Shown: in pieces, positions 1,324 to 63,745 of the stretch
How the letters are laid out: every line of letters starts with the position of its first letter
Numbering within the stretch: the stretch's first letter is position 1
Source: Thermodesulfovibrionales bacterium
Lineage (GTDB): Bacteria > Nitrospirota > Thermodesulfovibrionia > Thermodesulfovibrionales > Dissulfurispiraceae
Length of the DNA: 64,000 nucleotides
Direction of reading: 5' to 3'
Assembly (NCBI GenBank): GCA_020062545.1
Contig: JAGUWD010000004.1
Coordinates: 1 to 64,000 of the forward strand
Made by a program: the position numbers and the translations under genes
Notes under the pieces: model-generated
The model's input: only the letters and a program-made list of their open reading frames with translations
The model's database searches: none
Told to the model about the DNA's origin: nothing

Positions 1324-1489
1324 ATATATGTCAGGCACGGCTCAAAGACTTTAAAAGTGTTAGTTGAAGTGCATGTAATAGAGAATAAATGCATTACTCA
1401 ACAAGTATCCAATGTTGTAGAATGCGGATACAAGATAAATGTATTTACAAGTGCGGGTTTAAAGTCTTTTCGCCGCACCTGACATATAT
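1324..1489. repeat. Dispersed structured intergenic element, copy A
   Basis: A 166-base element with long inverted arms: ATATATGTCAGG at 1324-1335 pairs with CCTGACATATAT at 1478-1489, followed by a GC-rich block and AAAGACTTTAAA/TTTAAAGTCTTT. The interior carries GTATCC...GGATAC and the conserved CAATGTTGTAGA. Copies B (14007-14166) and C (43185-43351) share the interior motifs and order but have different outer arms. It lies inside the thiamine operon between thiG and thiE. Confidence 0.8.
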
Positions 1490-14006: not shown

Positions 14007-14166
14007 AAGACAGGCACTGCTCAAAGACTTTAAAAAGTGTTGGTTCAAGTGTATATGAGAGATAATAAATGGAGTATCTAATAAGTGACCAATGTAGTAG
14101 ATGACAGATACAGGATAAATGTTTTAACAAATGCGTGGTTTAAAGTCTTTTCGCAGCGCCTGTCTT
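14007..14166. repeat. Dispersed structured intergenic element, copy B
   Basis: A 160-base copy. AAGACAGG at 14007-14014 pairs with CCTGTCTT at 14159-14166; the arms continue through a GC block to AAAGACTTTAAA/TTTAAAGTCTTT. Interior GTATCT...AGATAC and CAATGTAGTAGATG correspond to copies A and C. It lies between the TusA-like gene and mdh, in the same orientation as the flanking genes. Confidence 0.8.
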
Positions 14167-25079: not shown

Positions 25080-25089
25080 AGTATCACCT

Positions 25090-25188
25090 TTAAAGATAGC
25101 CCTGTGAGGCTAAGAAGGTAAGGAGACATTGTGAAACACATATACAAAACAATATGCCTTCCTCTGAAGACAGGGGAAGGCTTTTTTT
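25090..25188 (+). promoter_or_regulatory. PyrR-type attenuator leader with terminator
   Basis: AGCCCTGTGAGGCT at 25098-25111 resembles the PyrR binding-loop consensus ARUCCNGNGAGGYU. A terminator follows: GCCTTCCTCTG (25156-25166) pairs with CAGGGGAAGGC (25171-25181), then seven T. PyrR bound to UMP would favour termination. A short frame starting GTG 25131 behind AAGGAG runs 28 codons to 25217 across the terminator and may be a leader peptide. Confidence 0.75.
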
Positions 25189-25722
25189 ATGGTCATGGCG
25201 AAAGAACTTTTAAATAAAAAGGACATGGAGAGGATAATTTCGAGGATCGCCCACGAGATTATCGAAAAGAACAAGGGCACAGAAAACCTCTGCATCGTTG
25301 GAATACAGCGCGGAGGCGTCCATCTCGCAAAAAGGCTTGCAAACAGGATAAAGAACATCGAGAATGTGGATATTACAGTAGGCTCCCTCGATATATCCCT
25401 TTACAGGGATGATATAGGGATAAGAAAGGAGCAGCCCATTGTCAGAAAGACTGAAATACCCTGCGATATAACCGATAAAAAAATAGTTCTCGTGGATGAC
25501 GTCCTGTTCACAGGCCGCTCTATCAGGGCTGCTATGGATGCATTGATGGATTTAGGAAGGCCTGCCCAGATACAGCTTGCTGTGCTCATAGACAGGGGGC
25601 ACAAGGAATTGCCCATCAGGGCTGATTACGTGGGTAAGAATATTCCCACCTCGATGTCGGAGAGCATAGAGGTTCAGCTTGAGGAAGAGGGACTTGAAGA
25701 CAAGGTATTGTTGCAGACATAA
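25189..25722 (+). CDS. pyrR: PyrR regulator / uracil phosphoribosyltransferase
   Basis: An RNA-binding attenuation protein of pyrimidine operons, with PRTase fold. The PRPP loop [20 protein letters not shown] and [15 protein letters not shown] at the N-terminus are characteristic. ATG 25189 and 25195 are both possible; the T-run of the attenuator directly precedes them. Placed first in the operon it controls, as usual. Confidence 0.93.
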
Positions 25723-43151: not shown

Positions 43152-43184
43152 AATTAAAGCGATTTTATAGGTCAGACATGAGGT

Positions 43185-43351
43185 TATGACAGTATGTGTG
43201 CATCAAAGCCTTTACAAAGTGTTATTTTTTATTTATGCCAGAGATCATTAAGGCTCACTTATGTGGTGAGCAATGTTGTAGATGACAGGTTCAAGACAAT
43301 GTTGCATAATATTCTGGAGTGTAAAGTCTTTTCATCACACATACTGTCATA
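43185..43351. repeat. Dispersed structured intergenic element, copy C
   Basis: A 167-base copy with perfect 16-bp outer arms (43185-43200 with 43336-43351), then TTTACA/TGTAAA where copies A and B have TTTAAA/TTTAAA. The interior GCTCAC...GTGAGC hairpin and CAATGTTGTAGATG match A and B in order. Located between the kinase and its regulator, in the same orientation as the genes. Confidence 0.8.
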
Positions 43352-43370
43352 TGCAATATATTAATTTGGG

Positions 43371-46976: not shown

Positions 46977-48251
46977 ATGAACCTTTCCGAGAAAAGTAAA
47001 ATTATCCTTCCAATTCTTTTGATTGCCGTTTTTGTTTTTTCATCTTTTGGCTGGATTTTTTATTTTCACAAGTATCAGTTGAAGCAGATAATTGAAACAA
47101 TACAGTTGCTGAACCGGATAGACAGCGATATCAAAGAGTTCAACAGGGTCATCCAGAGCGGCATTTTAACACTTGATAACAAATATACCATTCAGGCCGA
47201 CAGGTATTCCCTCGGTATTTTCGACAGCTTAAATACCCTCAAGAAGACCCACTCCTCAGAGGCCGAAAGGATAAAGAGAAGATACATGGATTATTACTCA
47301 AAGCTTATATCTATCAATTCATTGTTTCTCGAAAAGAGGCTACAAGAGGGAAGAAAGAGATTAGATGAACTGGAACTTATCTATTCGGAGATAAATGAGG
47401 AAATATCAAAGACACTCCATATGCACATGGGTGAGTATGAAAGGGCAATAAAGAACATAAACATATTTATGGCTACGACCTCCGTTGTTTTTACCGTGAT
47501 GGTTTCACTGATTATCGGCCTTTTCATGCATTACAGCAAAAAGAGGAAACAGGCGGAAAAGGCAATGATAGAATCCGAAAAAATGGCCTCTCTTGGTGTT
47601 CTGTCAGCAGGTGTTGCTCATGAGATAAGGAATCCGCTGACAATAATATCTCTTGGTGTAGAACAATTGAAATACATGATTAGTGGCAATCCCGAATTGC
47701 TTAAGGTTGCCGAAAACATTAAAAATGCAGTGATAAGGGCAGACAGGATAGTAAGAGGGCTGCTGGATTATTCCCAGCAATCTGCCTTTAGGTTTGAAGA
47801 CCTTAACGTTGCTTTAATAATGGAAGAGTCTTTGCAAATACTGGCCGAGCAGATAAAAAACAGGAATATCTCTATCATCAAACAATTTTCTCCAGACCTG
47901 CCAGGACTAAAGTGCGACAGGGATAAAATGCGGCAGGTCTTTGTAAATATCCTGCTCAATGCTATCGATGCCATGCCTGATGGTGGAACAATTTCAATAA
48001 AACTCGAAAGCGATGAAAAAACCCTGCTGCGAATCGTCTTTACAGACACAGGAAAGGGGATTTCGGATGAAGAGATACATAAGGTCTTTGACCCGTTTTT
48101 CAGTACCTCTCACAAAACCAGCACAGGTCTGGGTCTTTCTATAGCAAGGGGTATAGTGGAAAGGCACGGCGGCAGAATAACAATAGAGAGCAGGGAGGGA
48201 AAAGGCACTGATGTGATAATCACATGTCCAGCGGGTAAAAGTAGTGATTAA
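46977..48251 (+). CDS. Sensor histidine kinase paired with the PstS-like protein
   Basis: A 424-aa kinase with helices near residues 10-30 and 158-180 and a helical periplasmic domain between them. The kinase core has HEIRNPLTIIS with the phospho-acceptor, NILLNAIDAMPDGG and DTGKGIS, GLGLSIARG. No HAMP is obvious. No regulator gene follows it; it may act on the NtrC-type regulator at 43371 or on the receiver at 55608. Coupled to the binding-protein gene. Confidence 0.85.
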   Translation: MNLSEKSKIILPILLIAVFVFSSFGWIFYFHKYQLKQIIETIQLLNRIDSDIKEFNRVIQSGILTLDNKYTIQADRYSLGIFDSLNTLKKTHSSEAERIKRRYMDYYSKLISINSLFLEKRLQEGRKRLDELELIYSEINEEISKTLHMHMGEYERAIKNINIFMATTSVVFTVMVSLIIGLFMHYSKKRKQAEKAMIESEKMASLGVLSAGVAHEIRNPLTIISLGVEQLKYMISGNPELLKVAENIKNAVIRADRIVRGLLDYSQQSAFRFEDLNVALIMEESLQILAEQIKNRNISIIKQFSPDLPGLKCDRDKMRQVFVNILLNAIDAMPDGGTISIKLESDEKTLLRIVFTDTGKGISDEEIHKVFDPFFSTSHKTSTGLGLSIARGIVERHGGRITIESREGKGTDVIITCPAGKSSD

Positions 48252-48255
48252 ACTC

Positions 48256-48346
48256 AAATTACGCAAGGGCATGACAGTAGATGTACTTCAAAGTATTTAC
48301 AATCTGTTATACGCAATAGTAATATTATTTTACATTTGCGTAATTT
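48256..48346. repeat. Shortened relative of the dispersed element, copy D
   Basis: A 91-base element bounded by AAATTACGCAA (48256-48266) and TTGCGTAATTT (48336-48346). Its interior from 48271 (ATGACAGTA...TTCAAAG...TTTACAA...TGTTAT) matches the 5' half of copy C at 32 of 40 aligned positions by hand. The middle and right parts of copy C are missing. Between the kinase and the chemoreceptor gene. Confidence 0.65.
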
Positions 48347-48364
48347 AGTTAACGGAGGGGGAGT

Positions 48365-49969
48365 ATGAATCTAAAAGATGTATCTCTAAAAAACAAGGTA
48401 ATGGTGCCGATTGCAGTGATGGTCACTGTAGGCATTGTAATCACAATTTTTGTAACAACAGGCAAGACCAGGAGTATTGTTATAGATGAGGCAAAGCATA
48501 CAGCCCTTGCCGGGTTCAGAGATACGGTATTAAATACCCTGACAACAATGATGATTACCGGCAATATCAAAGAGGCCAAGTCCCCGTTTTTAGAGCAGAT
48601 GTCGCATATCGCAGATGTACATGTGATAAGAGCGGAAGTCCTCGATAAAGATTATGGAAAGGGCAAGCCAGAGGAATATCCAAAGGATGAGATCGAAAGA
48701 GAGGTCGTGGAAAAAGGCATGGAGAGGATTTTTCTCGAAGGAGAACATCTCAGAGGTATTTTCCCATATATTGCAAAGTCAAATTATATGGGCAGAAACT
48801 GCCTTAACTGCCATAATGTAAAAGAAGGGACTGTCCTTGGCGCAATAAGCATAAAGATACCACTGACACGTTCCTTTGCCACTATCAGGTCATCCCGCAA
48901 CCTCTATTTCGGACTCGGATTAATTGGCATTCTGTCAGTAACCGGAGCCATATTCTTTCTCGTTACAATTGCCTTCAGGCCACTGACTCATCTGATAGAA
49001 AAGGTCAGACAGTTGTCAGAAGGAGATTTGACAGCCACAATAGACTATCACAGTAAAGATGAAATAGGCGTTCTTGCGCATAACATGAACAAGATGATAC
49101 AGTCTTTTAACAGCATGATAAACGGCATACTCGCATCATCAAACAAAGTGGTGTCCACAGTGGATGTATTGAGGACCAGGGCAGAAAAGACATCAGAAGG
49201 TGCAAAGAATCAATCCTTACAGGCCCACCAGATAGCAACTGCAGCAGAAGAGATGAGCCAGACAATAACAGATATAGCTAAAAATGCATCCGTGGCATCT
49301 GATACATCATCAGAGGCAATGGAAATAGCAGAAAGCGGCAAACAGATAACGGATACAACTGTTGAAACGATAAATGAAGTCAATACTTCCACGGCAGAGC
49401 TTTCAAGGATGGTGGACAGGCTGAACAACAGGGTGGTTGAGATTGGAGGAATAGTAACCGTAATCAAAGATATTGCAGACCAGACAAACCTTTTAGCATT
49501 GAATGCAGCAATCGAGGCAGCAAGGGCAGGTGAGCAGGGAAGGGGATTTGCAGTTGTTGCTGATGAGGTAAGAAAATTAGCAGAAAGGACAATAAAGGCA
49601 ACAACAGAGATTTCGGAAAAGATAGGAGCAGTGCAGGTTGAATCCGAGCAAACGGCTAAGTCTATGTCTTCCTCCACAAAGGGTATAACTAAGGCAGTAG
49701 GACATGTGAAGAACTTGAAGAATGTTCTGGATACCATTGTGGAGTCTGTTCAGAATGTCAGAGATCAGATAACACAGATAGCAACTGCAGTTGATGAACA
49801 GTCTGCTGCATCGGAAGAAGTGGCAGGAAATATAGAAAAGACATCTGCCATTGCAAAAGACATGGAGAAGATGGCGGATGATGTAATGCAGGAGATTGAT
49901 GCATTGGCAAAGATAGCAGAGGAATTAAGAAACTCAACAGCAGGGTTTAAGACAAGGGAAACAGAATAA
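48365..49969 (+). CDS. Methyl-accepting chemotaxis protein with periplasmic CxxCH motif
   Basis: A 534-aa chemoreceptor. Helices at about residues 13-30 and 178-202 bound a sensor domain in which [17 protein letters not shown] lies just before the second helix, as in the GGDEF-EAL protein. HAMP and the signalling hairpin follow, with [20 protein letters not shown] and [18 protein letters not shown], conserved for CheA/CheW coupling. Covalent haem binding would make it a redox sensor, consistent with energy taxis linked to the reductase cluster. Confidence 0.9.
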
Positions 49970-63639: not shown

Positions 63640-63653
63640 CAATTAAAAATTAA

Positions 63654-63745
63654 AAAGGCGATGGGGTTCGCCATAACCGCTTTCGGTTCCGAAGCTGATA
63701 ACTCCTACTCTCGGTTAAAAAATTTAAGAGGGTAGGAGTTTTTTA
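63654..63745 (+). promoter_or_regulatory. Fluoride (crcB) riboswitch with terminator
   Basis: GGCGATGGGGTTCGCC, AACCGC and CTGATAACTCCTAC give the fluoride aptamer consensus. ACTCCTAC at the 3' end pairs with GTAGGAGT at 63733-63740, followed by TTTTTT, so aptamer and terminator compete. The terminator stem also holds the ribosome site AGGAG before the ATG at 63746, so control may be both transcriptional and translational. Confidence 0.93.

Follow-up and report, generated by a model that had tools for sequence, protein, structure and literature searches.

A shortened copy of a dispersed MITE family with IS1380-type ends between a histidine kinase gene and a chemoreceptor gene in a Thermodesulfovibrionales bacterium

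The short intergenic repeat studied here, copy D, belongs together with its closing stem to one mobile family of DNA elements. The family has the marks of MITEs: its many members are short and mostly intergenic, carry no transposase gene, share terminal inverted repeats, go with a 5-bp target duplication and occupy sites that are filled in one genome and empty in another. D thus adds a new case to a familiar class of elements. Very probably the family is moved in trans by IS1380-family transposases, and D is a short copy which was internally deleted, kept its ends and is now immobile. Table 1 lists the features within our window (the whole 64-kb stretch of DNA that was analysed).

Table 1. Copy D, its parts and neighbouring genes, and the other family copies in the window.
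Feature	Positions	Strand	Basis or remark
Copy D, short (97 bp) subfamily-A element, intergenic	48253..48349	+	End-to-end match to family ends; left-end profile E=1.3e-4; site empty in G002
Left terminal inverted repeat of D, AAATTACGCAA	48256..48266	+	Motif and register as in full copies
Right terminal inverted repeat of D, TTGCGTAATTT	48336..48346	+	Perfect complement of left arm; full copies end in same motif
Left inner arm and core start of D, GGGCATGACAGTAGATGTACTTCAAAGTATTTACAA	48267..48302	+	Profile and shuffle tests
Possible right-inner-arm remnant in D, CTGTTATACGC	48304..48314	+	Predicted fold pairs CTGTTATACGC with ATGACAG; alone not significant
TTAAA, possible left target duplicate of D	48248..48252	+	Exact 5-mer at D's other end is TAACG
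Histidine kinase gene (HisKA, HATPase_c), upstream of D	46977..48251	+	
Methyl-accepting chemotaxis protein gene, downstream of D	48365..49969	+	
Copy C, interior of a full copy, outer repeat degraded; between two signalling genes	43183..43357	+	Sites without element in relatives
Copy B, subfamily-B copy, core part	14021..14162	+	
Copy A, subfamily-B-like copy, core part	1332..1481	+	Weak profile matches on both sides; 11-mer core pair

D is placed directly between the stop codon of the kinase gene and the ribosome-binding site of the chemoreceptor gene. Its left end starts at 48253 and reads CTCAAATTACGCAAGGG, and there is no ORF of 80 aa within the element. Of the parts of a full copy, D retains the two outer ends plus the left inner arm, and the conserved core is missing. 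The original prediction had described an 11-bp inverted pair around D, which is indeed present and perfect, but had regarded this pair as unrelated to the dispersed element and had considered that the closure of the stem might have re-evolved. Neither idea stands: this stem is what the family has as its terminal repeat, and 16 of 18 positions agree with the end of an IS1380-family element. A check of whether the pair is conserved in position was positive: full subfamily-A copies finish in this very motif pair at the same position, and we therefore consider the right terminus to have been kept by D. The 5-mers beside D, TTAAA on the left (which includes the kinase stop codon, 48249-48251) and TAACG on the right, do not form an exact duplicate, and TTAAC would be duplicated only if one end base had been lost.

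The resemblance of D to copy C, noted originally from a hand count of 32 of 40 positions, amounts to 78% over 45 nt, or 30 of 40 positions in one ungapped register. A left-end profile built from 15 subfamily-A copies, D excluded, ranked C first (E=5.3e-11) and D second (E=1.3e-4) in the window, and D's left-end score was reached by none of 1000 dinucleotide shuffles. Profile and shuffles support the view of D as a shortened relative of the dispersed element and rule out chance as the source of the similarity. Copy C, not D, is the member that lost its outer terminal repeat. One kinase match and the C/D match have an equal spacing of 5085, and we considered that a single duplication of the kinase region had produced both copies; this was rejected, and two separate insertions are likelier, because both sites are without an element in relatives although the genes are present.

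With copy C as the query, the family was found at 28 places in the 2.6-Mb genome at E<=0.001 (the query included), and 26 of 29 own-genome loci entered our alignment (L020, L026 and L030, partial or doubtful, were left out). Full copies mostly measure 211-217 bp (about 215 bp), although another, nested repeat can bring the length up to 266 bp, and run from an outer terminal repeat through an inner arm, the core, a second inner arm and a right-side spacer to the other outer repeat. The core consists of the paired AAAG.CTTTA.AAAG / TAAAGTCTTT plus GCAATGTAGTAGATGACGGATTCAAGA. The ends follow the motif CCYRAATT and fall into at least three types, namely A (CCYRAATTACGCAA), which D has, B (CCTAAGTTGAGCGATT) and C-type (CCATAATCCGTAATG). 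Most copies (21/29) have no overlap of more than 20 nt to any ORF of at least 100 aa. Two loci of the same genome, L021 and L014, have unlike outer ends, C-type on the left and B- or A-like on the right, which looks like an exchange of ends. Elsewhere, family copies contain insertions of yet another subfamily, which has the ends CCTTA..GTTGCAT and a core of the same kind (L104 in G003:C60, L134, L136, L140, L142, L168). Elements in G005 and G041 (L181, L190) combine B-type ends with a different interior palindrome (GGACAGGCGTCTCGCCTGTC).

The family was found in a few Nitrospirota bacteria. A search for the exact core pattern over 84,980 species genomes, a set which possibly does not include the own genome, returned 46 stretches. 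They come from just four assemblies, of which three bear the title Nitrospirae bacterium and the fourth the title uncultured bacterium. A DNA search at E<=1e-5 detected the family in 8 of 60 genomes, the own genome included. Literature queries worded as MITE plus IS1380 and MITE plus Nitrospirae returned no description of it.

For both sites, D's and C's, there are relatives without the element. In the congener G002, the genes matching those around D are 21 nt apart with no element between them. Three genomes (G001, G015 and G024) have an empty C site; G002 has a 45-nt gap there without an element, and G028 a gap of 146 nt, for which only the length was compared. In G003, a truncated A-type end (L101, G003:C58:1221-1235) lies upstream of the same chemoreceptor gene with a different gene before it, and is a second, different insertion there. 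Of 46 copies found, four were dropped (L175, L177, L178 and L179, A-pattern hits judged chance from their interiors); among the remaining 42, in which both ends were read, exact 5-bp AT-rich duplicates flank 14, compared with a mean of 1.0 and a maximum of 6 in 2000 shuffles. No comparable excess exists at 3, 4 or 6-10 bp. A piggyBac-like 4-bp TTAA duplication, suspected from a nested G003 copy, was discarded, as the excess across the family is at 5 bp only.

The candidate mobilisers are IS1380-family insertion sequences (PF13701), which have the same terminal sequences as the family and have exact 5-bp AT-rich duplicates beside two of the elements inspected (TTAAA at L252 and TATTA at L249), but differ from D and its relatives, which are without a transposase gene. 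Of 176 genomes of the order, 59 have PF13701 genes; the own genome gave no match, so the mobiliser is not resident. One such gene in G003 has a B-type end upstream (AAAATCGCTCAACTTGGG), and on a second G003 contig a B-type end lies downstream of a fragment identical over residues 413-459. These two ends differ slightly (AAG..TTTT vs AAA..TTCT), and a like difference exists between the left and the right end of B elements. Relatives of the G003 protein are found in 5 of 100 genomes, and of the 12 loci, counting the two in G003 itself, 9 carry a B-type end. For subfamily A, the match comes from another genus of the order, where a 1699-bp IS1380-family element (L252) has CCCAAATTACGCAAGGGT-type ends, i.e., those of D, with TTAAA on both sides. 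Its left end matches a single place in the window at 15/18 or better, and this place is the left end of D (16/18). L252 was the only one of 30 inspected IS1380-family loci with an A-type end; the IS1380 elements of G002 (L112) and G003:C60 (L118), with ends that are similar (CCCAAATTGCG; CCCCTATTTTGCCG) but not identical, were rejected as mobilisers of A. Judging by these sequence matches, the family end is apparently recognised by an IS1380-type transposase.

Short forms were sought with an A-type and a B-type pattern, each run over 30 genomes, and were found in both congeners, G002 and G003. Besides D itself, the A-type pattern matched a 62-bp copy in G002, with breakpoints other than D's, and four hits judged to be chance. 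With the B-type pattern, the own genome gave a single match (C15:2729-2799), G005 two and G041 one. In G003 it gave 56 matches on the plus strand, most of about 80 bp, and 55 on the minus strand, the two sets being largely identical near-palindromic places; a reversed control of this pattern gave zero matches. In most G003 short forms the palindrome CCTGCCTGTGCGTTGCACGCAGACAGG stands in place of the core, and in some long G003 copies (L155, L165) it flanks the core on both sides, which suggests that recombination between two such palindromes could remove the core. The same 27-bp palindrome is nested in many G003 elements (L083, L098, L110, L148, L155, L165 and others), sometimes on both sides of the core, and has the look of an independent small repeat which either enters the core or takes its place. 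Short forms have therefore arisen independently more than once, at least one kind multiplies, and shortening is compatible with mobility.

In the mechanism that we favour, transposases encoded by IS1380-family insertion sequences would recognise the ends CCYRAATTACGCAA (subfamily A, D included) or CCYRAGTTGAGCGATT (subfamily B) and move the elements in trans, with insertion at AT-rich sites and duplication of 5 bp. D would have arisen by internal deletion, before or after insertion, with its ends kept, and is presumably immobile in its own genome because no PF13701 gene was found there. An immobile deletion derivative is thus the most likely identity of D, and among the origins proposed earlier the decayed copy fits best, D being a single copy with no clean target duplication. 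Against this reading we count the lack of an exact duplication at D, the lack of a PF13701 match in the own genome, the presence of the A-type end at a single one of 30 loci and in another genus, the non-significant right-arm remnant, and a core that is more alike between subfamilies than the ends are.

Two alternatives concern the origin of D itself. It could be that a broken left fragment of a copy came by chance to lie within an 11-bp inverted repeat of independent origin, given that such pairs occur 12 times in the window, as compared to 0 to 6 times in ten Markov controls, that D lacks an exact target duplicate, and that its right inner arm shows no significant similarity: without the outer arm, 75 of 1000 shuffles equal the right side of D by mean score and 148 by best score. 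With the outer arm, however, the numbers out of 1000 fall to just 11 (mean) and 8 (best), the pair agrees with full-copy ends in sequence and register, and the left end has the IS1380-family match that no other place in the window shares, all of which makes such a coincidence very improbable. The other possibility is that D belongs to a separately multiplying minimal form of subfamily A, moved as such. Separate minimal forms, which the original prediction had allowed for D, do exist in relatives (at least 56 places in G003 and the one A-type copy in G002), and exact 5-bp duplicates flank 8 of 21 short copies, mostly from G003. For D itself two points speak against it: its own genome holds no second copy (the next best match has E=0.8), and the G002 short form looks independent of D because the two break at different points. 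We thus consider it very improbable that D is a member of such a form.

A third view, which we also find very unlikely, is that the main role of the family is that of a structured RNA or cis-regulatory element, with D as a reduced version. In its favour, the arms covary (16 of 25 predicted pairs changed on both sides in 26 copies), the plus strand of D folds better than 200 of 200 shuffles (z -3.9), and the core is conserved across subfamilies. On the other hand, transposon ends can covary without any RNA function, and target duplications, empty sites and ends in common with IS1380-family elements explain the dispersal. At gathering score, Rfam had no match to the element in the four window copies, and in three loci with other copies it gave one match at E<=1, outside the element. 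(A TPP riboswitch at 149-256, a PyrR site at 25083-25190 and a fluoride riboswitch at 63648-63714 were recorded in the window at gathering score.) D has no terminator-like site, and its two promoter-like sites at 9 of 12, against 1.0 in shuffles, are uninformative. 

Within the mechanism that we favour, D may also act on transcripts: if the kinase and receptor genes are co-transcribed, D would add to the mRNA a stem of at least 11 pairs just before the receptor ribosome-binding site. This stem could affect RNA processing; in Correia elements, RNase III is reported to cut at such stems (PMC10969869).

The conservation of the core is unusual, being the reverse of what is expected for MITEs that depend on nothing but their ends. 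Similarity between subfamilies is 84-86% in the core halves and 73% in one middle stretch, as compared to 36-45% for the inner arms and 39% for the outer arms, the latter figure being lowered by partly misaligned columns in the alignment. One explanation, speculative and in our view rather unlikely, is that the core of full-length MITEs is a cargo: it would persist, and the ends around it would be swapped for the ends of different IS1380-family transposases. If true, the core would be a functional RNA or protein-binding element travelling on changing ends, and D and the 80-bp forms of G003 would be the same vehicle with its cargo lost.

Similar elements are known from other bacteria. Correia elements, or NEMIS, of Neisseria are likewise described as small, non-autonomous, mostly intergenic elements with terminal inverted repeats, with a long form of about 155 bp and a short form of about 107 bp without an internal piece (PMC2229807), which resembles the long and short forms seen here. 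They differ in their end sequences, with TA at the termini, where our family has a 5-bp AT-rich duplication and IS1380-type ends. The 113-bp MITEAba12 of Acinetobacter was attributed to a parent IS because the two have their ends and the length of the duplication in common, a reasoning also followed here, but it has a 9-bp duplication, another IS and a parent resident in the same genome (PMC6382973), whereas the parent of our family is not resident.

Overall, our work links this family to IS1380-type transposases and shows that shortening has occurred repeatedly and that a close relative can hold short forms in large numbers. With its long, short, filled and empty states, the clade offers a natural series for asking which part of a MITE its spread requires. 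It also bears on the question of why the interior core is better kept than the ends, for which the core-less D is a natural comparison.
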